Source: Notamacropus eugenii (taxonomy: Eukaryota > Chordata > Mammalia > Diprotodontia > Macropodidae). Taken from it: a stretch of DNA of 64,000 nt. Position 1 is the first letter of the stretch. Every line of letters starts with the position of its first letter. The stretch covers positions 34,490,817 to 34,554,816 of the forward strand of contig NC_092875.1 of assembly GCF_028372415.1 (NCBI RefSeq), written 5' to 3'. The notes beneath the pieces were generated by a model. That model made no database searches, was not told the origin of the DNA, and saw nothing but the letters and a program-made list of their open reading frames with translations. Of the stretch, positions 14,001 to 64,000 are shown one piece after another. The translations under genes were made by a program, and so were the position numbers.

Positions 14001-17000
14001 AAAATATTCAGACCACTCATCCAGTTAAGGGATTAGTCTATGCAACGATGCATGGATTCAGAGTCATGTTAGGCTGCAACATTTGAACACAAAGTTAAGA
14101 AAGAAGGTAAGCAAATGAGGAGGGCTAAAGAGCTGGAATCACAACAGTACTTCTCATTCTGGGCAGCCTTTCTCCTTTATGGAAGAACACTAGGCTTGGG
14201 CTGAGAAGGGAGTGCCAGAGAAGCGCTCCATCCAGAGAGGGCCTGGCTACCATCTTGGAGACACACTCTCATCCATGCTGCTCCCTTCATGAGAGGTCCA
14301 AATGGAGGCCCCTTTCATTGGGGCCTTTTCTTTCTCTTTCTCTAAATGAGCTCCTCATTTCTCATTGCCTGCACTGATGGAGGACTCCTTTGATGTTTCC
14401 ACCAAGCCCCTCTGCAGATCCCTTCCAGCCCATCCCTTCCTTTTTGGTTTTCTTCTGTATATCCTATTCCCAAATAGACTGGAAGCACCTTGAAGGCAGG
14501 AATTGACTTTGTTTTTGTACCTGTAGCTCCAGTGCTTGGTACAGAGGACATGCCTGATAAATCTTTATTGACAAAGCAAACTGTCTTGAAGTACATTGCC
14601 ACTATTCTACACAGGGTGTATTACAAGTCATACAGTCCAAGGTGGGTGAAGAAGAAAGGATGGCAGGAATTAAATAGGAGGTAAACAGATGGTCACAGCT
14701 AGTGCATGGATAATGGAACACTCCCCTCCCCCAGCTCTGCTGGAGAAGTCTAGCTACTCACAGACGACTGTGCCCTTACAGTAATGCTAACAGATGAAAC
14801 AGAAGGAATGAGATGCATAAATAACGTATGGCACCCTAAGTGATCGGAAATATCTCAAACATTTACCCTTGTATTTTGTTCAGTTTCTAAAGCATTTCTC
14901 TAGGATTCTAGCAGGGTGGCTGGGAGTATGCTGCCCTGAGGAATTACCTGAATTCCCTCTCCACGGCATGGGCAGAGGGAAGGAGTTTTCCTGGTGGCTT
15001 CTTCCTCAGGACCAAGTGGTGATTGGCCAACCGGATGGAATAAGTTGGATTGGACTGGCCATGGCTGAACTGCAGGACTTCCAACGGACCTGCAACCATA
15101 AAAGACAAAGGCAAAATTCAAAAGGGTGGTTGAAAAAAAGACAAAATATCCTTTCTCTCCAATTTTACCCCAGAAGAGACTATTTCCCACAGAGAAAAAA
15201 AAAAGGCATTTCTACATCCCACACTAGAAGGATGAAATCCCTACAGCACCCATTTAGGGTTGGTTAGGTAATAGAATAGGGGTGTAGCATACACCCAGAT
15301 CCCCTGAGATGGTGCCTCTCTATGAGTAGAGGCTGGAAGCTGTTTCTGGGAAATTGGAGATTGTGGACATTCTGTGTTGGCCAACCACGTGACTGGAAGC
15401 AGCCAGAATTGTTGGTGTGTGTAAAACTACCTGACTCAGGCTTTTGCTGCATTCACATCTGAGGAAAGAGGTGACTCCTTCATACTATGTATGATATGAG
15501 AGGGAAGGGCTTTAGGGCCCCCTCCCCATCCCACAATGTGCCTCAGTCTTTGTCCTTTCCTTCATTCTTTTCCATTCCGGGTGTAGAGAGTGGAGAATCT
15601 GCCCTGGGCCAGGTGCTTGAGCTATGGAGATCTAGGAGACCAGGAATCCAGACCAGGTATTGCAGCCAGCCCATCAGAAGCTAACAGGAAATCAGGGCTT
15701 TGGACGTAATGTTGGTGGGATTAAACTATATGCAGGAACTGAGCTAAGTAGTGAGCATAATTCTTCTCCCTCCTTGCTCCCCTCCACTCGGATACAGAGG
15801 TGGTGGTGGTAGGGATTGTGCCCTGGTGGTGATGGGCAAATGTTGAATGATTTTTCTTGCTACATCTTTGAAGTAAAAATCCCTTTGTAAAAACTACGAT
15901 GATGATAGGTAATTAAGTGGAACTAGAGTGCTAGTCAATGGGCCCCTAAAATGGGAGGGACAAACCCAATGGGGACTTGAGCTGAAGGCAGAGAAGAAGA
16001 GACCCCTCAACCTCTTCCTGATACTTGTGGGGACTCCAGGGAAACAGGATTGGCCCTTAGAGAGCAGGGCCAGAATCAAAACGGATTAGTGACCAGAGCC
16101 ATACTTAGAAGATCAGGCATCTGGGGCAGAAGCATGAAAGATACCCTAAAATCACCTTTAAAGGGAAACTGAATGAGAGAGCCAAGGAATGCCCAAGGTC
16201 TGGCCCCTCTGGACAAGAGTCCTGGACATTGAAGCTGGGAGGGAGCAAGGTAGGGCCTGGTTGGGAAGCTCACCTGGGATGTGGTTTCTCTGATGGAAGT
16301 AGGAGAGGCGGAGGACACCACTTGGTGGCCTTTGATTTTCATTAACTATTCTTGCTAACTGGGTGCTAAAGTCAGTTACTCAGACAGTTTTCAGACAAGG
16401 AAATCAAAGCTATTTATAGCCATATGAAAAAATGCTCTGATTTAGAGCTACTGATTAGAGGAATGCAAATTAAAGCAACTCTGAGGTACCACTTCCCAGT
16501 CATCAGATTAGCTAATAAGATGAAAAAAGGAAAACGATAGATCTTGGCGGGGATGTGGGAAAACTGGGACACTAATACACTGTTGGCAGAGTTGTAAACT
16601 GATGCAATTATTCTGGTGAGCAATTTGGAACTATGCCAAAAGGACTATCAAACTGTGTATACCCTTTGGTCCAGCAATATAGCTGCTAGGTCTATATCCT
16701 AAAGACATCAAAAAAGAGGGGGGAAGGACCTATTTGGACAAAAATATTTATAGCAGCTCTTTTTGTGGTGGATAAGAATTGGAAATGAAAAGGATGCCTG
16801 TCAGTTGGGAAATGGCTAAAGAAGCTGTGGTATATGACTGTGATGGAACATTATTGCACTATAAGAAATAACAAGAAGGATGACTTCAGAAAAATCTGGA
16901 CTTACCTGAACTGATGCAATGTAAAGTAAGCAGAACCAGGAGAATGTTGTATATAGTAACAGCAATATTGTAAGATGAAGAATTGTGAACAGATTAGCTG

Positions 17001-20000
17001 TTCTCATCAATACAATGATCCAAGACAATCCCAAAGAACTAATAATGAAGTACACTATCCACCTCCAGAGAAAGAACTGATACTGCCTAAATACAGACTG
17101 AAGTATGCCATTTTTCACTTTCTTCCTTTCATTCTTTTTTTATTTGAGTCTTTTTGTACAAAATTACTAATATGGAAATGTTTTACATGGTTATACATGT
17201 ATAATCTAAATTGATTGCTTTTGCTCTTGGGGTGGGGAGAAGGAAAGGAAGGAGAAAGGGAAAGAATTTGGAATTCAAAGCTTTTTAAAAAGTGTTAAAA
17301 AATTATTTTAACATGGAATTGAGGAAAAATGAAACATTATATTAAGAAAAAGAAAGAAAGAATGGGTTGGCCAAAAGAGGAGAAAAGTCAGTTGCTTCTT
17401 CTTGCTGAAGAACAACAGGTGTTGTCCACCCCTCCTAAGTTTCAGTGCCCTGGCCAATGCCACATTTGCCCTGCCCTAGTTATGGCCATGGCGAAGGGCA
17501 CTGTTTTGACACTTCCGTGATTTCTTTGATCATATTATAATTGTAGTATTGTATTACATCTCTCCTTGCTGCCCTTTTCCAAAGAAGGCAAGCTCATAGT
17601 TATATTCATCAGAAACAACCATTTCCCATATTGTTAAAAATAGAATGTTCTTGGCCTTCAGAAGAAAGAGTTGGTTTTTTTTACCCCATACCCTACCAAA
17701 CCACTTCTGACAAATGAGAGCCGAGAGGGGTAATTAAATAGTTTTGCTAATGGAGATAATGCCATTTCCCCTGTCAGTGAGTTAACCACAGTGACATCTT
17801 GGACCTAACTAGCAAACAGACTATGATCTGGTTTTTCCAGGCTGAAATCTGGACATTGGCCAGAAGGGCAGAGAATCAACAGAAACTCAGTGGTAAAGAA
17901 ATATAAGAAATGACTTCCCAAGGAACAAGGTAGGAAGCCAATGGTCTTTTCCAATGGTCCCAGGAACTCCGTCTGATTCATACATTCTTCCAGAATAGGA
18001 ATGCAAAAAATGAGAGGGAAGGTTTGTAGGATGCATAGGAAACTTGCTACAATTTGTAATCCTGCAAGGTTCAATTCACTTTCACAAAACAGACCATTAT
18101 TGTCCACATTAAAAATTCTTAAACTATAGACATACTTGGGGGTCTACCTGTCAAGACACCAGGAATTCTATGAATACAATTACAAAATATTTTTCACATA
18201 AAGAAAGACAGATCTAAAGAACTGGAGAAATATTAATTGCTCATGAGTAGGCTGTGCCTAATATAATTAAAATGACAACACTAGCTAAATTAATTTGCTA
18301 ATTCAATGCCAAACTACTTAAACCATCAAATAATTATTTTGAGCTAGAAAAATTAATCACAAAATTCATCTGGAGGAACAAAAGGTCAGGAATATCAAGA
18401 AAATAAATGAAAAAAAGGTGAAGTAAAGCAGTTTGGCAGATATGAAATTATTCTACAAAATGGTAATTATCAAAACAATCTGGTACTAGATGAAAAACAG
18501 AATGCTTGATTAATAAAATAAATTACACACACAATATACAGAAGCAAATGAACACAATAATTCAGTGTCTGATAAATCCAAAGATCCTATCTATTGGTAT
18601 AAGAACTCACTATTTAACAAAAACTGTTGGGAAAACTGGAAAAGCAATCTGGTAGAAACTAGGTATAGAGCAACAGCTCACAATATATGCCAAGATAAGC
18701 TCAAAATGGGTACATGATTTAGACATAAACGGTGATATAAGCAAATTAGGGCAGTATAGAAAAAAATTACCTATCAGATCTATGGCTAAGGAGAGTTCAT
18801 GAACCAACAAAAGACAGAGGTGCTCATGAAAAATAAAATGAATAATTTTGATTGCATTAAATTAAAAAGGCTTTGCACAAGCAAAACCAATGCAAACAAA
18901 ATTAGAAGGAAAGCAGGAAAGTGGGAGGAAAGTTTTAACAACAAATTTCCCTGATAAAAGTTTCATTTCTTGGCGGGGCAGAACTAAGATGGCAGAGTAG
19001 AAAGACAACCTGTAGAAGCTCTCCCCCAACAACCCATAAAAATACCGGTAAAAAATGACTCTAAACAAATTCTAGAGCAGCAGAAGTCACAAAATGACAG
19101 ACTGAAAATAATCTTTAGCCCAAGGCAGCCTGGAAAGCCCACAGGGAAGGTCTATCGGAGTGCAGCCCAGCCTTGGCCACACGATGTGGCAGGGACAGGA
19201 CTGGAGCAGGTTTCAGGGCACCACTGGCAGCAGCTGCAGTTCCCAGATCCCTCAACCCACAAATGCCAGAGACAGCTTCAAAGGTCAGTGAGAAAGCTCT
19301 TTCACCTAGGTGAGAAGGGAGCAGGGTCCTCCCCTAGCCCTGGTTCCAGGCATTCCAGAAGCAGCATCCATTTTTGGAGACCTCAGCCTAAAGACCCTGG
19401 GGGAATCGAGCAGCTGATCTGGATCTCAGCCCTGAGTGGCAGTCCTGGGGTGAGATGAAGCACTGGCTGGTGGAGCTGGTGGAGGCTCTGGAGAGGGAAT
19501 TCTACTCACAAACCAGAGTGTAGGCCAGGAGAGGAATAAACTCCTCTCCCTTGATTGTGCCACCTTGGAGGAACTGTGAACTTACAGGTCCCTAGGGTAT
19601 ACCCTTCTCTTGACAAAGGACTCAAAAGTCAAGTAACTAGCTGGGAAAATGCCCAAAAAAGGAAAAAAAATAAGACTATAGAAGGATACTTTCTTGGTGA
19701 ACAGGTATCTTCTTCCACTCTTTTGAAGGAAGAACAAGGCACACCAGCAGAGGAAGACATAAAAGTCAAGGTTATTCTGCATCCAAAACTTCCAAAATAA
19801 ATATGCAATGGTCTCAGGCCCTGGAAGAGCTCAGAAAGGATTTTGAAAATCAAGTAAGAGAGGGGGAGGAAAAATGGGGAAGAGAAATGAGAGCAATGCA
19901 AGAAAATATGAAAAGCGAGTCAACAGCTTGCTAAAGGAGACTCAAAAAATGCTGAAGAAAATAACACCTTTAAAAATAGACTAATTCAAATGGAAAAAGA

Positions 20001-23000
20001 GGCCCAAACAGCCCATGAGGAGAAGAATGCTTTCAAAAGCAGAATTAGCCAAATGGAAAAGGAGGTTCAAAAGCTCACTGAAGAAAACTGTTCTTTAAAA
20101 ATTAGAATGGAGCAAATGGAAGCTAAGACTTTATGAGAAACCAAGAAATTACAAAAGAAAGCCAAAAGAATAAAAAAATAGAAGACAATGTGAAATATCT
20201 CATTGGAAAAACAACTGAATAGAAAACAGATCTAGGAGAAACAATTTAAAAATTATGGGACTACCTGAAAGCCATGATCAAAAAAAGAGCCTAGACGTCA
20301 TCTTTCACGAAATTATCAAGGAAAACTGCCCTGATATTCTAGAACCAGAGGGTAAAATAAATACTGAAAGAATCCACCAATCACCCTCTGAAAGAGATCC
20401 GAAAAGAAAAACTCCTAGGAATATTGTAGCCAGACTCCAGAATTCCCAGCTCAAGGAGAAAATATTGCAAGCAGCCAGAAAGAAACAGTTCGAATATTGT
20501 GGAAATACAATCAGGATAACACAAAATCTAGCAGCTTCTATATTAAGGGATTGAAGGGCTTAGAATATGATATTCCAGAAATCAAAGGAACTAGGATTAA
20601 AATTAAGAATCACCTACCCAGCAAAATTGATTATAATACTTCAGGGGGAAAAAATAGTCATTCAATGAAATAAAGGACTTTCAAGCATTCTTGATGAAAA
20701 GACCTGAGCTGAATAGAAAATATGACTTTCAAACACAAGAATCAAGAGAATCATGAAACAGTAAACAAGAAAGAGAAATCATAAGGGACTTACTAAAGCT
20801 GAACTGTTTACATTCCTACATGGAAAGATAATATTTGTAACTTTTGAAACTTTTCTCAGTATTTGGGTAATTGGAGGGATTATATACATATAATATAGAC
20901 AGAGGGCACCAGGTGAGTTGAATAGGTAGGGATGATATTTAAAAAAACAAAATTAAGGGGTGAGAGAGGAATATATTGTGAAGAGAAAGGGAAAAATGGA
21001 ATGGGGCAAATTATCTCATAAAAGAGGCAAGAAAAAGCTTTTTCAATGGAGGGGAAACAGGGGGAAAAAGTGAAGCTCACTCTCATTACATTTGGCTTCA
21101 GGAGGGAATAATATGTACATTCAATTTGGTATGAAAATGTATCTTACACTACAGGAAAGTATAGGAGAAGGGAATAAATGGGCTATGGCGGGGATGATAG
21201 AAGGGAGGGCAAATGAGAGGAGGGAGTAATTGGAAGTAATCTCTTTAGGGGAGGGACAAGGTCTAAAGAGAGAATAGAATAAATAGGGGGCAGGATAGGA
21301 TGGAGGGAAATATAGTTAGTCTTTTACAACATGACTATTATGGAAGTCATTTGCAAAACTACACATATATAGCCTATACTGAATTGCTTGCCTTCTCAGT
21401 GGGGATGGGTGGGAAGGGAGGAAGGGAGAGAAGTTGGAATTCAAAGTATTAGAAACGAATGTTAAGAATTGTTTTTGCATGCAACTGGGAAATAAGAAAT
21501 ATAGATAATGGACTATAGAAATCTATCTTGCCCTACAAGAAAAGAGAGAAGATGGGGATAAGGGAAGGGAAGGGTGTGATAGAAGGGAGAGCAGATTAGG
21601 GTTAGGGGTAATCAGAATGCATGGTGTTTTCAGGTGAGGGAGGGGAGAGATGGGGAGAAAATTTGGAATTCAAAATCTCATAGAAATGAATGTTGAAAAC
21701 TAAAAATAAATAAATTTTTTTAAAAAAGTTTCATTTCTCAAATATGTAGAGAAGTGAGACAAATTTTTAAAAATGAGAGCCATTCCACAATTGATAAATG
21801 GCCAAAGTATACAAATAGGCAGTTTTCTGAAAAAATCAAAATTAGAGAAATGCAAATTAAAACAACTCTGAGGTACCAAATCACATTCCTCAGATTGAAT
21901 AACATGACAAAAGGAAAATGACAAATGTTGGAGGGAAAATGGAAAAATAAGGACAGTAATATATTGTTGGTGGAGTTGTGAACTAATCCAAGCATTCTGG
22001 AGAACAATTTGGAACCATGGCCAAAGGGCTATAAAACTTTAGATTCTTTGACCCAGACATATCACTACTAGGTTTGTATTCCAAAGAGATTAAAAATAAA
22101 TAAATAAATAAATGGAATGAATAAATATATAAAAGGCCAGAGAGAACTGAAAAACTCTGGGTGCAAAGTGAAGTATAATTTTCTCATTTTCTTTACTTTT
22201 ATTGCTTTTTTTCTAAACTCTGGCTAATGTAGAAATGTTTTGCATGATTTCACATGTATAACTGATAAGGGGGTAAAAGCAGGGATGAGAAGAAAGGAGA
22301 GAATTTGGAACTCCAAATTTGAAAAGAAAAGAATATTAAAAATAAATAATAAATGTTAACATTTAAAAAAGGAAGAGAACTCATATGTACAAAAATATTT
22401 TATAACATCTCATTTTCTGGTGTTAAAGAATTGGAAACTGAGGGGATGCCCATCACTTACATAATAGCTGAACAAGTTGTGGTATATGAATGTAATGGAA
22501 CACTATTGTGCTATAAGAAATGATGAGCAGGATAGTTTCACTTATATGAACTGATACAAAGTGAAAGGAGCAGAATCAGGACAACACTGTACACAGTAAC
22601 AGCAATGTTGGAATGATGATCAACTGGAGGTGGTGCCAAGGTGGCAGAGAAAAGGCAGGACTCACCTAAACTCTCCCAATGTTACTTTGAAAAAACTTTA
22701 AATAACACCTAAAAATTAATCATGGGGCAGCAGAACCAACAAAAAGATAGGATGAAACAAATTTCCAGTCCAAGACAACTTAGAAAGTCAACAGAAAAGG
22801 TCTATCACATAGGAGACAGAATAGAGTGCAGTCCAGTGCACACTTTAGCAGGATAGCAGCAAGCCTTGGGGGCAACTGAATTGGCAACAGCAACTTAAAG
22901 AGCTCTTGGCCCACAGTTGGCAAGGGGGTCAGAAAACTGGTCAGAAAAAGATTAGAGAGGTTCCTTTGCTGGCCCTGAGTGCAGGATCCAGTTGCTTTGC

Positions 23001-26000
23001 CCATACGTAGATTTGGATCACGGTTCTGGGGCATAGTCCCAGGGCAAGAAGAAGCACTAGCACACCGCAGCCTATAGCCACAGAGGAGTAGAGACCGTGG
23101 TCACAGTTGTAGGGTAGAAAAAAGTACTTATGGTTGCTCATAGACCAGAAGATAGGCCAGGAGAATGGTGACTACACCTTTCCTTTGATCACATCACCCT
23201 GGAAGAGCTGGAAACTTACAGGTGCCAGAATTAGCTCTGAAAATAGCAGAACAAAAAAACTAAAGCCTGGGACTGTACCTCTTCCACCCCTGGAACAGAG
23301 GCAATGTCAACATAAAGTCAAGGAATAGGCTGGAAAAATGATCAAACAACAATAACCAAAAAGGAACATGATCGTAGAAAGTTACTATGGTGACAGGAAA
23401 GATTCAAACAAATTCAGAAGAGAACAATAATGTCAAAATGTTTATAAGCAAAGCTTCAAAGAAAATTGTGAATTGGAGTCAGGCCCAAAAAGAATTTGTG
23501 AAAGAGATCAAAAAAGATTTTAAAGTTCAAAGAGAGGTAGAAAAAAATTAGGAAAAGAAATGAGAGTGGTGCAAGAGAATCACAAAAAAAAAAGTCAACA
23601 GCTTGGTAAAGGAAGCACAAAAAAGGGAAAAAGATGTTCAAAAGCTCATTGAAGAAAATTCCTTAAAAATTAGAATTGGGCAAGTGGAAGCTAATGACTC
23701 CATCAAACATCAACAAACAAAATCAAAAGAATGAGAAAACAGAAAATATGAAATCTCTGATTGGAAAAACAACTAACCTGGAAAATAGATAGTGGGAGAT
23801 AATTTGAGAATTCTTGGAAAGCCTGAAAGCCATGGTCAAAAAAAGGGCCTAGACATCACATTGCAAGAAAACATTAAAGAAAACTGCCCTGATATCCTAG
23901 AACCAGAGGATACAATCGAAATTGAAAGAATATACCAATTACCTCTCAAAATGAAAACTACCAGGAATATTATAGCCAAATTCCAGAGTTTCCAGGTCAA
24001 GGAGAAAATATTGCAAGCAGCCAGAAAAAAACAATTCAAATATCCTGGAACCACAGTTAGGATAATGCAGGATTTGGCAGCTTCTACATTAAAGGATCAG
24101 ACAACTTGGAATATGATATTCCAGAGGGGGAAAGATCTAGGATTACAACAAAGAATCACCCAAAGCTGAGTCTCAGGAGGAAAAATGGATATTTAATGAA
24201 AACAAAGGACTTTCAAGCATTCCTGATGAAAAGACCAGAGCTGAAAAAAAAAATTGACTTTCAAATACAAAACTACTATAAAAGGTAAACAGGAAAAAGA
24301 TATCATAAGGGATTCAATAAGGTTAAACTGTTTACATTCCTCTATGGGAAGAGGATACTTCTAACTCCTAAGCACTTTATCATTATTAGGGCAGTTAGAA
24401 GGAGTAGACCGAGGGCACAGGTATAAGTTGACTATGATAGGATAATAACAAAAAAAACAAAGTTAAGGGATGAGAAAAGTGATATAATGGGAGAAGGGGG
24501 AAGGGAGAGTTAGAATGGGGTAAATTATCTCACATAAAAGAGGCATGAAGGAGTTTTACAGTGGAGGAGAAGATGGGGGTGGGGGTGGTGGACAATGCTT
24601 GAACCTTACTCTCATTGAACTGGATGAAAGAGGGAATAACATACATTCAGTTGGGTATAAAAATCTTTCTTACCCTACAGGGGAGTATTATAGAAAGGAA
24701 GGGAACTGATAGAAGGGAAGATAAATTGGTGGAGGTGGTGATCAGAAAAAAACGCCTTTGAGAAGGAACAGGGTAAAAGGGGAGGAGGAGGGAGAAAGAG
24801 AGAGAGACAAAGAGAAAGAAAGGAGGGAGGAGAGAGAGAGAGAAGGATAAAGAGGAGAAAATCAGAAGGAGAGAAATACACAGTTAGCGATCATAACCAT
24901 GAATGTGAATGGGATGAACTCACCCATAAAATGGAAGCAGATAGCAGAGTGGATTAAAAACCAGAAGCTGACAATATGTTATCTATAAGAAATACGTTTC
25001 AAACAGAGAGACACACAGAGTAAAATTAAGTAGCTAGAGCAGAATCTATTATGCTTCAGCTAATATAGAAAAAGCAGGATAGCAATCATGACCTCAGACA
25101 AAGCAAAAGTAAAAATAGACCTAATTAAAAGAGATAAGCAAGAAAACTACATCTTGCTAAAAGGTACCATACTCAATCAAATAATCTCAATACTCAACAT
25201 AAGTGCACCAAATGGTATAGAATCAAATTCTTAAAGTAAAAATTAAATGAGTTACAGGAGGAAATAGTGAAACTATGCTAATGGGGGATCTCAATTTTCT
25301 CTTCTCAGAATCAGATAAATTTAATAAAAAAATAAATAAATAAGGCAGAACTTAAGGAGATGAAAATAATTTTAGAAAAGTCAGATATAATAGACCTCTG
25401 GAAAAAAAACTGAATGGAAACAGAAAGGAATATACCTTTTTTTCAGCAGTACATGGAACCCACCTAAACGTAAATTGACTATGTATTACTTCACAACCAG
25501 CTGCAGAAAAGCAGAATTATTAAATGCATCCTTTTCAGATCATGATGCAATAAAAATTATATTCAATAATGGACCATGGAAGGGTAGATTAAAAATTAAT
25601 TGGAAACTAATGATGATCAGCTGTGAGACTTATCTACTTCAATAAATACAACAATCCATGATAATTCCAAAGGACTCATGATGAAAAATGCTATCCATCT
25701 CCAGGGAGACAACTGATGAACAGTGAGTACAGATTGAAGGATAATTTTTTTACTTTATTTTTCCTGGTGTTTTTTTTTGTCTGTTTTCTTTTGCAACATG
25801 ACTAACATCAAAATATGTTTATGTGACCACAAGAATATTATGTATTGTATATCTTTTCTTCTCAATGGGTGGGGAAGGGAATAGAGGGAAGGAAAAAATT
25901 TGGAACTGAAATTTTTTTTAATTTAAAATTTTAAAAAATGTTTAAAATTCCCTAAGAATTCATGGGAATCAGACTTTCTATAAACAAAGTACCTGTCTCT

Positions 26001-41965: not shown

Positions 41966-42251
41966 CCCTACCCTGGCTACGTTTTTCTCCCTCCCTCATC
42001 TTGACCCCTTCAATGAACTAGTCCAACTGGCCACCGTCTTCTCTTGAGTCCCTTATTCCCTCACTGAATGGGCGATCTTGTACTGCCAAGCCTCCTCTAT
42101 CTAGCACTCCCACTAGCCAATGTCTTCACTCCTACTCTTGTGTGCCAAAGGAAGCTGGACAAAATCCCAACACTATGCTGATGGGGTCTACTTCAAATGC
42201 ATGTAACATAATCACACTTGATCCCTCACTCCAGCAACACTTCCCTAACCA

Positions 42252-45010
42252 GAGTGGGAGGAGCCAAGATGGCAGAGTAGAAAGACACACATATGCTAGC
42301 TCCGAACCCACAGCCCATAAAATATCTGTAAAGAAGAACTCCCAACAAATTCTGGAGCAGCAGAAGCCACAGAACAACGGAGCGGACGAGATTTCTGTTC
42401 CAGAGAGACCTGAAAACCTGACGTGAAAGGTCCGTCACTCACTGGACCCAGAGCAGAGGCCAACCCTGCCTTGGCTGTGCAGCACCCAGAGGAGCCAATC
42501 CGAGCAGGCTTCAGGGACAGAATCTCCAGTGACCATGCAGGTTCCTCCACCCACAGGTGACAAGGGTCGGTGAGCGGGTCTCTTTGGCTGGTCGAGGGGA
42601 GTGGTGTGTCCCCATAACTTGGGCCCCCTCGGGAGGCAGCAGCAGGGGCAACAGCAGATAGGGGCTCCCAGAGCAGGCAGGAGCTCAGATCCATTGTTGA
42701 ATGTCTCTGCATAAACCCCCTGAGGGAACTAAGCCCCAAGTGGTGGCCCTGCCCCCACCTGAGCACCTGAACTTAATCTCACACTGAATAGCAGCCCCAC
42801 CCCCACCAAAAGGCCTGAGGCTGGGAAGCAGCATTTGAATCTCAGACCCCAAGCACTGGCTGGGAGGATCTGGAGGCCTGGTGGGTGTGGAAAGAAAATT
42901 CAGAAGTCAAGTCACTGGCTGGGAAAATGCCCAGAAAAGGGAAAAAAAATAAGACTATAGAAGGTTACTTTCTTGGTGAACAGATAATTCCTCCCTTCCT
43001 TTCTGATGAGGAAGAACAATGCTTACCATCAGGGAAAGACAAAGAAGTCAAGGCTTCTGTATCCCACACATCCAAAATAAATATACCATGGGCTCAGGCC
43101 ATGGAAGAGCTCAAAAAGGATTTTGAAAATCAAGTAAAAGAGGTGGAGGAAAAACTGGGAAGAGAAATGAGAGAGATGAAAGAAAAGCAGGTCCACACCT
43201 TGCTAAAGGAGACCCAAAAAAATGCTGAAGAAAATAACACCTTTAAAAATAGGCTAACTCAATTGGCAAAAGAGGTTCAAAAAGCCAATGAGGAGAAGAA
43301 TGCTTTCAAAAGCAGAATTAACCAAATGGAAAAGGAGGTTCAAAAGATCACTGAAGAAAATAGTTCTTTCAAAATTAGCATGGAACAGATGGAGGTTAAT
43401 GACTTTATGAGAAACCAAGAAATCACAAAACAAAACCAAAAGAATGAAAAAATGGAAGATAATGTGAAATATCTCATTGGAAAAACAACTGACCTGGAAA
43501 ACAGATCCAGGAGAGACAATTTAAAAATTATGGGACTACCTGAAAGCCAGGATCAAAAAAAGAGCCTAGACATCATCTTTCATGAAATTATCAAGGAAAA
43601 CTACCCTGAGATTCTAGAACCAGAGGGCAAAATAAGTACTCAAGGAATCCACAGAACACCGCCTGAAAGAGATCCAAAAAGAGAAACTCCTAGGAACACT
43701 GTGGCCACATTCCAGAGTTCCCAGGTCAAGGAGAAAATATTGCAAGCAGCTAGAAAGAAACAATTCAAGTACTGTGGAAATACAATCAGGATAACACAAG
43801 ATCTAGCAGCTTCTACATGAAGGGATTGAAGGGCGTGGAATATGATATTCCAGAAGTCAAAGGAACTAGGACTAAAACCAAGAATCACCTACCCAGCAAA
43901 ACTGGGTATAATACTTCAGGGGGAAAATTGGTCTTTCAATAAAATTGAGGACTTTCAAACATTCTTGATGAAAAGACCAGAGCTGAAAAGAAAATTTGAC
44001 TTTCAAACACAAAAATGAAGAGAAGCATGAAAAGGTAAACAGCAAAGGGAAGTCTTAAGGGACTTACTAAAGTTGAACTGTTTACATTCCTACATGGAAA
44101 GAAAATATTTGTAACTCTTGAAACTTTTCAGTATCTGGGTAGTGGGTGGGATTACACACACACGCACACACACACACACAGACAGAGAGCACAGAGTGAA
44201 TTGAATAGGATGGGATCATATCTTTAAAAAATGAAATTAAGGGGTGAAAGAGAAATACATCAGGAGGAGAAAGGGAGCAATGGAATGGGGCAAAGTAACT
44301 CTCATAAAAGAGGCAAGCAAAAGACTTTTTAGTGGAGGGAAAAAGAAGGGAGGTAAGAGAAAAACATGTTTACTCTCATCACATTCCACTAAAGGAAGGA
44401 ATAAAATGCACACTCATTTTGGTATGAAAACCTATCTTACAATACAGGAAAGTGGGGGAGAAGGGGATAAGCAGGCTGGGGGGGGAGGATGGAAGGGAGG
44501 GCAATGGGAGGAGGGAGCAATTTGAAGTCAACACTTTTGGGGAGGGACAGGATCAAAAGAGAGAATAGAAGCAACGGGGGGCAGGATAGGATGGAGGGAA
44601 ATATAGTTAGTCTTACACAACACGACTATTATGGAAGTCATTTGCAAAACTACACAGATATGGCCTATATTGAATTGCTTGCCTTCCAAAGGGAAAGGGT
44701 GGGGAGGGAGGGATGAGGAGAAGTTGGAACTCAAAGTTTTAGGAACAACTGTCGAGTACTATTCTTGCTACTAGAAAATAAGAAATACAGGTAAAGGGGT
44801 ATAGAAAGTTATCTGGCTCTACAGGACAAAAGAGAAGATGGGGACAAGAGAAGGGAGGGATGATGGAAGAGAGGGCAGATTGGTGATAGGGGCAATTAGA
44901 ATGCTCAGCATTTTGGCATGGGGGGAGGGGACAAATGGGGAGAAAATTTGGAACCCAAAATTTTGTGAAAATGAATGTTAAAAGTTAAATAAATTAATTA
45001 AAAAAAACAA
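42252..45010 (+). mobile_element. Full-length half-LINE (HAL1-type, ORF1-only L1), copy B
   Basis: 2759 bp between a perfect 16-bp duplication AACACTTCCCTAACCA (42236-42251 and 45011-45026). It starts GAGTGGGAGGAGCCAAGATG, then GCAGAGTAGAAAGACAC (L1 5' UTR-like). The ORF1 relative starts at 42927. No ORF2 follows. A purine-rich 3' half carries a (CA)n at 44156-44180 and two copies of an internal module, ending in TTAAATAAATTAATTAAAAA. It is younger-looking than copy A and inserted in an L2. Confidence 0.93.
42927..44018 (+). CDS. HAL1/L1 ORF1p-like reading frame with two in-frame stops
   Basis: L1 ORF1 protein is an RNA-binding trimeric chaperone of the retrotransposon particle. The frame starts [19 protein letters not shown] and has a long coiled coil (about residues 60-180, with heptads such as [20 protein letters not shown]). 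The RRM opens with [13 protein letters not shown], and the C-terminal domain has [20 protein letters not shown] and [17 protein letters not shown]. Two TGA codons (43818-43820 and 43827-43829) cut it at 297 residues. The frame then stays open through [20 protein letters not shown] and KRPELKRKFDFQTQK to a stop at 44016-44018, so the ancestral length was about 363. The homology to human L1 ORF1p is clear by eye. It is not a host gene. Confidence 0.85.
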
Positions 45011-46104
45011 AACACTTCCCTAACCAATTCATTATCCCACTCACAATGGCAGCTTTTCATCCCTTCTCCAACTTCCCATGGTTTCCCCTCCTTACTCCCT
45101 CTCCATTCAGAACCTTGCCTCTCACTGAAAAAATAGACCATTAGCAAAGAGCTCTCTCTTCTCCCCTACACCCCTAGTCATCTCATGCCCCTCAGACATC
45201 TTCCTTCAGTCTTTCTTCCTCTTCTCCTCTTCTGAAATCTCTGCAGAGGCTTCCAATCTCATCATTCAGCCCAATGTCTTACTGACCAAATAGACTGGCT
45301 TTGTCTCAATCGTCATACTTCTCGACCTCTCTTCAGTCTTTGACATGACTGTTCCTTCCCTTCTCCTTCTCCAGGTTTTTGGGACATCACTCTCTTCTGG
45401 TTTCCCTCCTGTCTATCTGACCACCCCCTTCTCCTTTAATGGTTCTTCATCCAAGTACCCTCCTAGACCATGGATGTCCTAGGAGGGTCTGAACTAGACC
45501 CTTTTCTTTTCTCCCTCTAGATTATCTCCCTCAGTGCTCTCATCAACCCATAGATTCACTCATAAGGTCTAATGCAAATTACTTTCACATGTTTATTCAG
45601 TCCTAGCTTCTCTCTTAACCTCCAGATTCAATTCTCCAACTGCCCATCAGACATCTTGAACCAAATGTCCTATAGACACCTTAAACTCATTCAAAACTGA
45701 ACTCATTATCTTTTCTCCAAAATCTTCCCCTCTTCCTGACTTCCCCGTTACTGTCAAGGGTACCATCCTCCTCCCAGTCACCCAGACTGGCAACCTAGGT
45801 GCCACCCCCAACAACTCATTCTCCCTCACCCCACCATATCCCCCATGTTGCCAAATTCTGTTCATTCTGACTTTTTTTTCTTTTAGCATCTCTGGCATAC
45901 TCCTGTCTCCCCTCTGATACTGTCATTACCCTGGTACATGCCCTCATCACCTCCCACATGGACTATTGCAATGGCTATTGAGTGATTTTCCTACCTCAAG
46001 TCTTTCCCCACTACTATCTATTTTCCACTCTGCTATCAAGTGTATCTGTTATAAGTAAAGAGCTGATCACATCAGCCTTTTCTGGTGGTTCCATATTGTT
46101 ATTT

Positions 46105-57700: not shown

Positions 57701-59395
57701 TAAAAGTATTGAAAATGTCTCTTTGGAGGTACACACATATTAAATGTAGAGAAAATGTCACTTCCTCTGTGTAATCTATTTTTTCTTTCCCTTTCTTATA
57801 TTAATAGGCTGATGCAGATAGTTTTTATATGGCATGCAATGGTCGACAGTTTAATTCAATAGAAGAAGATGTTTGCCAGTTGGTGTATGTAGAGAGGGCT
57901 GAAGTGGTGAAGTCGGAAGATGTAAGTTTGAAGGATTGTCCTGTTTTAAGATTTCTAGAAATGGACATAAGCAGTGAAATTTGATGAAAAAAGCATTCAG
58001 GAAACATGGGTCCAAAGCCTTGGGGAAAAGTCATCCTTTTTGAGCCCTGTTGTCATCATATATGAAATGGGAATGATACATTAACAGGGATATTGTGAGG
58101 AAAGATCATGTAAATATTAAATTGTTATAAATATAAGTTCATAATGGTAAAATAGTTTAGTTTACAAAAATATATCAACCATAACAAAAAATAACTATGT
58201 TAAGTCACTGTCAGTGCTAATCAAGTGAAGCTCTGACAGTTGAATTTGGGTTGGTTTTGGAATCAACAATAAATCCTCTTCCCATGCCTTCATAGCTAGT
58301 ATTTGCAGTTTTGAAAAGCACCTTGTAATCTCCCTGATCTGGTGCCTTCTGGCACAGTTCTTCACCCCAGTTGATTGTCACTTGAGTAGTTATCAGTTTA
58401 GTTGCATTACATTCTAGATTTACATTATTCCAAAATGTAGTACTTAATATTCTTTACCTTGCATTAGGCTTGATTGAGGTAAAATTATTTAGACTACTAC
58501 ATTGTTAGGTTGAGAATAAATTCTGAGCCTCAAGTTAGGCACTTTTGCTCTGAACAAAACGAACTTATTGGCCAGCTATGAAAAAAATGAATATTAAATT
58601 TTGAGGATCTTTCCAAAATGCTTCTGGAAATAGAAGATGATTTTCATCATGTACTATATTTATATTAAAAGTCCATGTAATGATTGTACCTATATAGTCT
58701 ATATCAAATTGCTTGGCACCTTTGGGAGGGGTGGGAGGTAAGGGAAAAAGTTTGGAACTCAAAATCTTATGAAAGTGAATGTCAAAAACTATCTTTACAT
58801 GTAATTGGAAAAAAATAAAATACTATTAAGGGTGAGGGGGTCTATGTAGTTGATGATTTTATTGGATTGTTACCAGCTAAATAACACAGAAGTGCCTGTG
58901 TATTTCTAGGGCTATTCAAACTTGGTAACTGTTACTGTAACATAAAAGATATTGGGAAAATGAGGAATATTGAGTTTAAAAAGTCAGTTTGCCTGTGAAC
59001 TTGCATCTGATAGTGCTACTTTTGATGGCTACTTTTTCTGAATAAATCAAGGTGTTATATATTTTGTTGTTGTTCCCAGACCCATGTCTTCATGGACTTT
59101 AGAAACAGGAGGTTGGTATGTTTTTGGTTGAAAACTCTCATAATGAATTTAAACTTCTAGTTAGTAGCAGTCTGTTCATTCTACTTTGACAGTTTATGAA
59201 CTCCTAACTTGTTGAAATGAAACGTGGTGGTTTCATTTATATCCAGGGTGCCAGCCTCCCAGTGATGGACCTGACAGAGCTCCCTAAATGCACAGTATGC
59301 TTAGAGAGGATGGATGAGTCTGTGAATGGAATACTTACTACATTATGCAACCATAGTTTTCATAGCCAGTGTTTACAACGCTGGGATGATACTAC
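48616..59395 (+). CDS. BRAP: BRAP (BRCA1-associated protein / IMP), 5' half, partial
   Basis: Six plus-strand exons join in phase: 48616-48700, 50591-50752, 51479-51674, 52918-53107, 57808-57921 and 59247-59395. They give about 298 residues of a protein that is about 592 long in human. The start [17 protein letters not shown] matches human BRAP. Residues about 148-243 form the RRM-like BRAP2 domain. The RING finger begins at C264-x2-C267 and continues with C283, H285, H288 and C291; the final CPVC pair is in an exon beyond the window. The UBP-type zinc finger and coiled coil are also outside. From family knowledge, BRAP is a cytoplasmic Ras-responsive E3 ligase that restrains MAPK signalling by sequestering the scaffold KSR1, and it binds nuclear localisation signals. 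No internal stop is seen in the joined exons. Confidence 0.95.
48701..50590 (+). other. BRAP intron 1
   Basis: The first 200 bp are still CpG-rich promoter sequence. Most of the rest shows no repeat I recognise. A MIR-like piece lies at about 49985-50170 (cctcag, then gattctgtaatg, then aggattattttgagg). No open frame here is convincing. Confidence 0.6.
50591..50752 (+). CDS. BRAP: BRAP exon 2
   Basis: 162 nt, phase 1 in and out, donor GTAAGT. It encodes [20 protein letters not shown] and then [20 protein letters not shown]. The acceptor was chosen by phase: after TTTTACTTAG (exon from 50591) the frame is kept, whereas the next AG four bases on (TTAG before GGAGATG) would break it. A further AG after 50575 would also be in frame and add eight codons before GAGATG, five more than the chosen site. 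Confidence 0.88.
51285..51314 (+). repeat. Copy of the 3' end of BRAP exon 2 inside intron 2
   Basis: Thirty bases (51285-51314) match exon 2 at 50719-50748 with one mismatch. In the exon frame the copy reads [10 protein letters not shown] and then TAA. It follows a pyrimidine run and CAG (TTTTCTTTGCCAG), so it looks like an acceptor, but no GT donor follows. It is an exon shadow, not a usable exon. Confidence 0.85.
51479..51674 (+). CDS. BRAP: BRAP exon 3
   Basis: 196 nt, phase 1 in and phase 2 out, acceptor TTGTGAAAG and donor GTAAGAAA. It encodes a polar Ser/Lys/Glu-rich stretch containing [17 protein letters not shown], then the conserved [20 protein letters not shown] ending HGIMHLYKT. 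The polar part differs from human, while the second half is nearly identical. Confidence 0.94.
51675..52917 (+). other. BRAP intron 3, no recognised element
   Basis: About 1.2 kb of AT-rich intron. I recognise no SINE, LINE or exon here. Confidence 0.5.
52918..53107 (+). CDS. BRAP: BRAP exon 4: RRM-like domain, first part
   Basis: 190 nt, phase 2 in and phase 0 out, acceptor GTCTCTTTAG and donor GTATGAG. It encodes [20 protein letters not shown] and then [20 protein letters not shown], ending [11 protein letters not shown]. This is the strand-helix-strand part of the BRAP2 RRM-like fold, almost identical to human. Confidence 0.95.
54118..54248 (+). repeat. hAT-type MITE remnant in BRAP intron 4
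   Basis: The ends are imperfect inverted repeats: CAGTGATGCCAAA at the left and, reversed, CAGAGGTGTCAGA at the right. The interior has AGGCCACATACTG and TTTTGTTAAACATTTCCCAG, features of a common non-autonomous hAT family in mammals. The flanking 8-mers agree at only about 5 of 8 positions, so the target duplication is weak. Confidence 0.5.
54480..55734 (+). other. BRAP intron 4, middle part, no recognised element
   Basis: AT-rich intronic sequence without a repeat or gene that I can recognise. The short open frames here are chance. Confidence 0.45.
55735..55889 (+). repeat. MAR1-type tRNA-derived SINE with long A tail
   Basis: It begins GGGGGCAGCTAGATGGTGCA, contains a pol III box A-like start (GTGGATAGAGCACC) and a box B-like GAGTTCAAATCC, and ends in an A run of over 20 bases. 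Related short flanks (aaaagtgata and aaaggtgata) suggest a target duplication. It is truncated relative to the copy at 10738. Confidence 0.85.
57455..57505 (+). repeat. 23-bp tandem duplication
   Basis: A 23-bp unit starting AGGGGAGGAGGAATTATATC occurs twice (57455-57477 and 57478-57500) with one difference. A further AGGGG begins a third copy. Confidence 0.85.
57808..57921 (+). CDS. BRAP: BRAP exon 5: RRM-like domain, second part
   Basis: 114 nt, phase 0 to 0, acceptor TATTAATAG and donor GTAAGTTT. It encodes [20 protein letters not shown] and then [18 protein letters not shown], closing the RRM-like domain. Confidence 0.95.
58640..58830 (+). mobile_element. 5'-truncated L1 3' end in BRAP intron 5
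   Basis: It shows the typical order of this L1 3' UTR: CTATATCAAATTGCTTG, a G-rich run, TTTGGAACTCAAAATCTTATG, GTCAAAAACTATCTTTACATG and an A-rich end (aaaaaaataaaatactatt). It lies sense to BRAP. Confidence 0.8.
59247..59395 (+). CDS. BRAP: BRAP exon 6: RING finger, first zinc ligands
   Basis: 149 nt, phase 0 in and phase 2 out, acceptor ATATCCAG and donor GTAAGTAT. It encodes [20 protein letters not shown] and then [20 protein letters not shown]. The C-x2-C, C-x-H and H-x2-C ligands are present. The exon ends in the threonine codon just before the last CPVC pair, so the RING is split by an intron that runs to the window end. Confidence 0.95.
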
Positions 59396-59399
59396 GTAA

Positions 59400-62119: not shown

Positions 62120-62675
62120 TAATTTATCTGGGGAAAGGGAGGTACTACCTCACACCTATTAGATTGGCTAATAGGACAGGAAAAGAAAATAACAAATGTT
62201 GGAGGGGAAGTGAAAAAATTGAGGTCCAACCATTCTGGAGAGCAATTTAGAATTATGCCCAGAGGGCTATAAAACCGTGCATACCCTTTGATCCAGCAGT
62301 AGCACTAGTAGGTCTGTATCCCAAAAGAGGTTTAAAAAAAAAAAAAAAAGGAAAAGGACTTATATGTATAAAAATATTTATAGCAACCCTTTTCTAGTGG
62401 CAAAGAATTGGAAATTGAAGGGATGCCCATCAGTTGGGGAATGGCTGAACAAGTTGTGGCATATGATTGTGATTGAATACTATTGTGCTATAAAATATTG
62501 TGAGTGGGATGCTCTCAGAAAAACCTGGAAAGACTTACATGAATTGATGTAAAGCAAAATGAGTGAAACCAGGAGGGAAAGAACTTCTAGCTCAGTTTTA
62601 AAAACAAATGTTAAAAATTATTTTTACATGTAATTGGGGGAAAATAATATACTAAATAAATAATTTTTTTAAAAA
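62120..62675 (+). mobile_element. L1 ORF2 C-terminal / 3' fragment
   Basis: It contains the L1 ORF2 C-terminal signature in decayed form: TACCTCACACC...ATTAGATTGGCTAATA, then ATTCTGGAGAGCAATTTAGA, CTTTGATCCAGCAGTAG and GGATGCCCATCAGTTGGGGA. The frame around 62364-62552 reads ...VAKNWKLKGCPSVGEWLNKL. There are internal gaps (the 'gcattgttggtggagttg' segment and most of the 3' UTR are missing). It ends in an A/T-rich tail near 62675. Confidence 0.85.
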
Positions 62676-62680
62676 GAAGA

Positions 62681-64000
62681 AAAGGGGTACTAGAAATGTT
62701 AGCTATAGCAATTAGACAAGATAAAGAAATTGAAGGAATTAGAATAAGCAAAGAAGAAAGTAAGTTATCACTCTTTGCAGATGACATGATGATATACTTA
62801 GAAAATCTCAGGGATTCAAGTAAAAAACTACTTGAAATAATAAACAACTTTGGCAAAGCTGCAGGTTACAAAATAAACCCACACAAATCTTCTGCATTTC
62901 TGTGTATTGGTTAACAAAGCCCAAAAGCAAGAGATAGAAAGATAAATCCCATTTAAAGCTAGGGTAGATACTATAAAATATTTGGGAGTTTACCTGCCAA
63001 AACATACCCAGGGACTATATGAATACAACTACAAGACACTTTTCACACAAATAAAGTCAGAGGCCAAGCCAATATAATAAAAATGACAATTCTACCTAAA
63101 TTAATTTACTTATTTAGTGCCATACCAATTAAACTATCAGATAATTATTTTCTAGAGCTAGAAAAAATAGTATCAGAATTCATCTGGAAGAACAAAAGGT
63201 CCAGAATATCAAGGGGACTAGTGAAAAGAAATGCTAGGGAAGGTGACCTAGCACTACCAGATCTCAAATTGTATTATAAAGCAGCAATTATCAAAACCAC
63301 TTGATACTGGCGAAGAAATAGAAAGGTAGACAAGTGGAATAGGCTAGGTACTCAAGACACAGTAGACAATGAATATAGCAATCTACTGTTTGATAAACCC
63401 AAGGCCCCCTGCTTCTGGAATAAGAATTCACTGTTTGACAAAAATTGCTGGGAAAACTGGATAAAAGTGTGGCAGAAACTAGGCATAGACCAATGCCTGA
63501 CACTGTACACAAGAGCTGATCAAACCATTCTGGAGAGCAATTTGGAACTATGCCCAAAGGGCTGCAAAAATGTGCACACCCTTTGACCCAGCAATACTGC
63601 TTCTAGCACTGTATCCCCAAGAGATCATAAAAATGGGAAAGGGTCCCACATGTACAAAAATATTTATGGCAGCATTCTTTGTGGTGGCCAAAAACTGGAA
63701 ATCAAGGGAATGCCCATCAATTGGGGAATGGCTGCATAAATTATGGTATATGAATGTAATGGAATACTATTGTGCTGTAAGAAGTGATGAACAAGAAGAC
63801 TTCAGAGAGGCCTGGAAAGAATGATCTGATGCTGAGTGAAAGGAGCAGAACCAGGAGAACTTTGTGCACAGCAACTACTATAGTGTGCGAGAGTTTTTTG
63901 TGGTAGACTTGGAACTTCATTGCAATGCAGGGACTTAAAAAAAATTCCCAATTGTCTTCTAAGGCAAAATGCCTTCCACATTCAAAGAAAGAACTATGAA
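62681..64000 (+). mobile_element. L1 ORF2 fragment from the reverse transcriptase onward, with an internal deletion
   Basis: A 5'-truncated L1 starts in the RT domain. The frame from 62696 reads [20 protein letters not shown] and then [13 protein letters not shown], with the RT catalytic FADD. It continues [13 protein letters not shown], then from 63083 [18 protein letters not shown] and [18 protein letters not shown] stop (TTGA near 63300) breaks it. Near 63515-63522 the sequence jumps from the region after FWNKNSLFDKN to ILESNLELCPKGC, a loss of about 0.5 kb compared with the L1 at 18.1-22.1 kb. The last part encodes KIFMAAFFVVAKNWKSRECP and runs off the window. It is a dead copy, sense to BRAP. 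Confidence 0.9.

Follow-up and report, generated by a model that had tools for sequence, protein, structure and literature searches.

The half-L1 elements (HAL1s) of mammals were reportedly described by Smit in 1999 and by Bao and Jurka in 2010, as relayed by papers that cite them. They keep ORF1 and borrow ORF2p, and so bear on the worth of ORF1p in cis and on the origin of L1 parasites. The excerpted text of three later papers (PMC5753468, PMC5322556, PMC4859970) presents HAL1s as L1-derived elements that encode ORF1p only, carry a poly(A) tail, are flanked by target duplications, rely on the reverse transcriptase and endonuclease of full-length LINEs, and have originated independently several times in mammals. 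RepeatMasker tables for full-length L1 and HAL1, in species including opossum, wallaby and Tasmanian devil, belong to PMC5322556, in whose excerpts no count of marsupial HAL1s appears; in PMC13174262 there is no occurrence of HAL1, marsupial, opossum or koala.

Here we analyse a 64,000-nucleotide stretch of Notamacropus eugenii DNA (the window) in which two ORF2-less copies, A and B, occur beside an ORF2-bearing relative, copy C, an arrangement that places the joint left by the missing ORF2 near the ORF2 start and reveals a doubled 3′ unit. Judged from their sequence, A and B are very probably two insertions of a HAL1-type half-L1, that is, of a LINE-1 derivative without ORF2 that may later have gained a second spacer/3′ UTR unit (S2-T2).

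Results

Two copies with perfect target-site duplications

The copies and their flanks are as follows.
42252..45010, + strand, 2759 bp: copy B, a probable 5′-complete half-L1 of HAL1 type, delimited by its target-site duplications and by the A-B alignment
42236..42251, 16 bp: 5′ target-site duplication of B, AACACTTCCCTAACCA
45011..45026, 16 bp, perfect: 3′ target-site duplication of B, AACACTTCCCTAACCA
18971..21723, + strand, 2753 bp: copy A, a probable half-L1 of HAL1 type with the order ORF1-S1-T1-S2-T2, as in B
18956..18970, 15 bp: 5′ target-site duplication of A, AAAAGTTTCATTTCT
21724..21738, 15 bp, perfect: 3′ target-site duplication of A, AAAAGTTTCATTTCT

The coordinates given for both copies in a preliminary description of this DNA proved exact, as did its perfect duplications of 15 bp (A) and 16 bp (B), each of which is present on the + strand of the window solely at its own two places (for AACACTTCCCTAACCA, 42236 and 45011). 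When identical search boxes were placed at random 2000 times and scored for an exact repeat of at least 15 nt, nine placements yielded one; six of these were the same two duplications and three were one GT-type simple repeat. An A-rich tail and target-site duplications, both HAL1 features, are thus present in A and B, and the marks of target-primed reverse transcription that had been described are there. The target site of B is a poor match to TT/AAAA, which counts against a half-L1 inserted by this route.

The alignment of the two copies that the preliminary description had proposed was run and is colinear from ORF1 to the tail, across the ORF2 joint, with 83.8% identity over 2125 columns (A 652-2746, B 649-2748). 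By block, the two copies are 77% identical at element positions 1-123, 55% at 124-640, 89% in ORF1, 82% in S1, 84% in T1 and 78% in S2 and T2 taken together.

A related L1 and other L1 material in the window

Copy C supplies the comparison for much of what follows.
22627..25608, + strand: copy C, a tailless related L1 in which a 5′ end, an ORF1 and the spacer of A and B are followed by ~740 bp of ORF2
22612-22626 and 25609-25623: target duplication of C, 15 bp with one mismatch

Downstream of its spacer, C encodes L1 ORF2p endonuclease corresponding to chain residues 5 to 118 (the first ~115 codons), the frame matching PDB entries 2v0s (E 1.6e-22) and 1vyb (E 2.1e-22); a Pfam search of two short C peptides returned no endonuclease family. 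With its 5′ end kept and its sequence stopping in ORF2, C is a candidate tailless, 3′-truncated L1 insertion.

An older L1 harbours copy C in its 3′ end. One old L1 apparently occupies ~18100-18970, 21739-22626 and 25624-25950, split by A and C, and a third interruption, an L1 3′ fragment at ~22105-22365, can be made out by eye; such a nested stack is useful for relative dating. At 62120-63900 there are rearranged L1 ORF2 pieces, in which 62225-62575 and 63520-63857 are alike (73%) and flank another ORF2 stretch. An open frame at 59208-59399 contains a RING finger (zf-RING_2, E 1.6e-8) and is followed by GTAAGT; it is a putative exon of the BRAP gene.

ORF1 and the 5′ UTRs

The 5′ part of copy B comprises two features.
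42252..42926, + strand: 5′ UTR of B, with GGAGGAGCCAAGATGGC near its 5′ end
42927..44018, + strand: ORF1 of B, 363 codons and a final TGA (44016-44018), no frameshift

The ORF1 of B matches Pfam Transposase_22 (E 6.9e-13), the LINE-1 ORF1p structure 2yko in the PDB (E 9e-15) and, past its second internal stop, Pfam Tnp_22_dsRBD (E 2.4e-8). With A aligning to B, these domain matches bear out the ORF1 that had been described in both copies, and with it L1 ORF1 coding as a HAL1 feature. Internal TGAs interrupt the frame of B at 43818 and 43827, and the TGA of 43827 is also found in A; in both copies this codon lies just upstream of the C-terminal domain. A common TGA at one ORF1 codon counts against the half-L1 explanation, and it may have arisen in parallel, by CpG decay of an arginine codon in each copy, or go back to a truncation in their ancestor.

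In A, ORF1 (from 19649) is broken by seven frame-shifting gaps relative to B in one alignment, which has ten gaps in all, those uncounted being two neighbouring gaps that sum to three bases and one at the slice end. Changes between the two ORF1s number 47, 37 and 41 by codon position (p 0.55), without a third-position excess and without a signal of purifying selection. When C is used as the comparison, 51 changes are specific to B and 35 to A, of 902 sites; for two copies and an outgroup that is 25-26% diverged, this hints that part of the divergence of B may have arisen in a source whose ORF1 still functioned.

The preliminary description had assigned A and B a common 5′ start type, which holds over ~120 bp but not beyond, where the 5′ UTRs differ, and the two starts that it quoted were in swapped order, GGAGCCAAGATGGCAGAG belonging to B and GCAGAACTAAGATGGCAGAG to A. 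Presumably GGAGGAGCCAAGATGGC, near the 5′ end of B, resembles the start of human L1. Most of the 5′ UTR of A (16-622) can be aligned to its counterpart in C (z 39.6); for the 5′ UTR of B, the similarity to C is clear over the first ~200 bp (z 17.4) and weak beyond (z 4.1). L1-derived 5′ and 3′ sequences, a further HAL1 feature, are thus present, the likeness of the B 5′ UTR to C being clear only over that ~200 bp. The 55% identity of the 5′ UTRs over element positions 124-640, against 89% in ORF1, suggests that A and B may represent two subfamilies; differing 5′ UTRs also count against the half-L1 explanation.

A spacer joined to a 3′ UTR, and a doubled tail

The 3′ parts of the two copies were divided into the following blocks.
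44019..44610, + strand: S1 of B, L1 inter-ORF spacer by homology to the spacer of C
44589-44610, + strand: likely ORF2-start relic of B, GGATGGAGGGAAATATAGTTAG, at the end of S1; weak alone
44611..44790, + strand: T1 of B, L1 3′ UTR end, with AATAAG replacing the poly(A) signal
44791..45010, + strand: S2 and T2 of B, divided by eye at ~44930 and closing with AATAAA and an A-rich tail
21298..21319, + strand: likely ORF2-start relic of A, at the S1/T1 joint
21320..21504, + strand: T1 of A, L1 3′ UTR end, with AATAAG
21505..21723, + strand: S2, T2 and tail of A

The purine-rich 3′ half that A and B were described as sharing is present in both, and its origin can be corrected: by homology it is an L1 inter-ORF spacer joined to an L1 3′ UTR. 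Measured against 100 dinucleotide shuffles in each case, the purine-rich spacer of C matches S1 of A with z 63.4 (383 of 580 columns) and S1 of B with z 41.0 (372 of 594), and because this S1-like spacer runs into the ORF2 endonuclease frame in C, S1 is identified as the inter-ORF spacer. At the end of S1 in both copies, GGATGGAGGGAAATATAGTTAG opens the frame MEGNIVS at the place of the ORF2 start, a likely relic whose match alone was equalled by 28 of 200 shuffles for A and 15 of 200 for B. Against each of five L1 3′ UTR stretches, T1 of both copies scored above all shuffles, with z between 10.7 and 30.6 in A and between 4.9 and 14.9 in B. Under stricter BLAST scoring, T1 of B matched 58641-58825 weakly (E 3e-6), and B was without a match to the L1 at 16981-17345.

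By the same kind of comparison the 3′ half of A and B is doubled, the spacer/3′ UTR being followed by a shorter second spacer/3′ UTR unit. S2 resembles S1 (z 9.5 in A and 9.8 in B; BLAST E 3e-7 and 1e-5) and has no clear likeness to the C spacer (z 4.1 for A, 1.4 for B), and S2 of A finds S2 of B with none of 200 shuffles as good. T2 exceeded all shuffles in four of the five L1 3′ UTR stretches for each copy, with a best z of 13.1 for A and 12.2 for B; against the L1 3′ UTR at 62555-62680, neither T2 beat all shuffles. Within 400 bp 3′ of the L1 3′ ends in the window, S2 was found at none of five with the A query and none of five with the B query.

T1 ends in AATAAG in both copies and T2 in AATAAA, a signal that three of the five 3′ ends of L1s in the window have as well. 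Further AATAAA motifs lie upstream inside both copies, including S1 (e.g. A 2203 and 2308, B 2149). On a simple reading, the inner L1 end would have lost its poly(A) signal, and the downstream unit would now form the 3′ end.

Absence of ORF2

To look for ORF2, six L1 pieces of the window were translated in three frames each, giving 18 queries that together cover ORF2 partly. Against A and B these gave six matches, all unconvincing (E 0.10 to 0.95). The control was positive for five of the pieces, whose queries recovered other pieces (best E 4e-35), and the endonuclease piece of C, without a partner, found itself only. The sequence 3′ of ORF1 amounts to only ~1.0 kb in A or B, and is therefore too short for ORF2 in any case. 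Both results agree with the earlier report that neither copy has an ORF2, and the ORF2 with endonuclease and reverse transcriptase that characterises an autonomous L1 is lacking in A and B.

Discussion

Because A and B share one colinear structure without ORF2, the loss of ORF2 must have preceded both insertions. The opposite order, in which A and B were inserted as L1s and chance deletions then removed ORF2 from each, is extremely improbable. It does draw on the fact that C has the same spacer followed by ORF2, from which an ancestor with ORF2 follows, and a spacer running into ORF2 is what the preliminary description had named as evidence for chance deletions of L1. That arrangement is indeed seen in C, but all that it shows is descent from L1. 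An identical joint in two copies with different duplications rules out separate chance deletions: the S1/T1 joint, the extra S2-T2 and the AATAAG are common to A and B, the insertion sites are unrelated, and duplication of a single copy is opposed by the different flanks. Together with the colinear 83.8% identity, these points uphold the earlier view of a defined ORF2-less element as opposed to two decayed L1s.

A repeated mobilisation of one-off ORF2-less L1 RNAs, spliced for example in the manner of SpIREs and with no ongoing family behind them, is also improbable, if less extremely so. That spliced L1 RNAs can retrotranspose is documented in the excerpted account in PMC5860796, and the L1 3′ UTRs of the window have T-rich stretches ahead of the joint region; by eye, though, no clean donor/acceptor pair was seen at the joint among the few L1 copies in the window. 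The 5′ UTRs differ, yet the joint and S2-T2 are the same, which implies two or more sources with this structure. That the HAL1-type half-L1 constitutes a family is something we infer from two copies and a related L1, C, in one window.

The source of A and B may have been an L1 that lost ORF2 from about its first codons to the 3′ UTR, later gained a second short spacer/3′ UTR unit, and now ends at the poly(A) signal of that unit. By analogy with known L1 biology, its RNA would be transcribed from a 5′ UTR promoter and translated to ORF1p; after binding by ORF1p, an L1 would provide the ORF2p for target-primed reverse transcription.

How the tail arose can be read in two ways, neither of them more than tentative. 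Possibly the half-L1 lineage rebuilt its own 3′ end, with the inner change to AATAAG, a takeover by S2-T2, and one body combined with at least two 5′ UTRs; if true, the lineage would be a long-lived, modular parasite of L1. The S2-T2 tail might instead have been inherited from an L1 subfamily and not gained by the half-L1, a doubtful but arguable alternative given that S2 resembles S1, that T2 resembles L1 3′ UTRs and that the L1 3′ ends examined number five; S2 follows none of these.

Searches of further collections returned nothing, as expected of viral and prokaryotic material: an exact 24-mer from T1 matched nothing in viral_contigs or in genome_contigs, and none of the ORF1-relative pattern matches was confirmed in viral_contigs (0 of 5) or genome_contigs (0 of 65). 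A distant blastn search of 42927-44950 against a plasmid collection likewise, and as expected, gave no match. Among the literature matches listed, in their excerpted form, no description of the doubled 3′ end of A and B was found, which is weak evidence.

Among known systems, the SpIREs, as excerpted from PMC5860796, resemble A and B in being internally deleted L1 RNAs retrotransposed by the L1 machinery. They lose the 5′ UTR or 5′ UTR/ORF1, however, and are called retrotransposition-defective, whereas A and B lose ORF2 and their structure recurs. Closer to hand, copy C has the same ORF1 and inter-ORF spacer as A and B, and the L1 fragments of the window have a homologous 3′ UTR; C differs in running into ORF2, while A and B lack ORF2 and carry S2-T2. 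The closest likeness is to the HAL1s, which in the excerpted descriptions are, like A and B, L1-derived elements with ORF1 only, a poly(A) or A-rich tail and target duplications; compared with those descriptions, A and B differ in their doubled spacer/3′ UTR half and in having two 5′ UTRs on one 3′ body. In the defining features examined here at the sequence level, A and B agree with HAL1s; they exemplify a known class, and what is unusual in them is the doubled tail.
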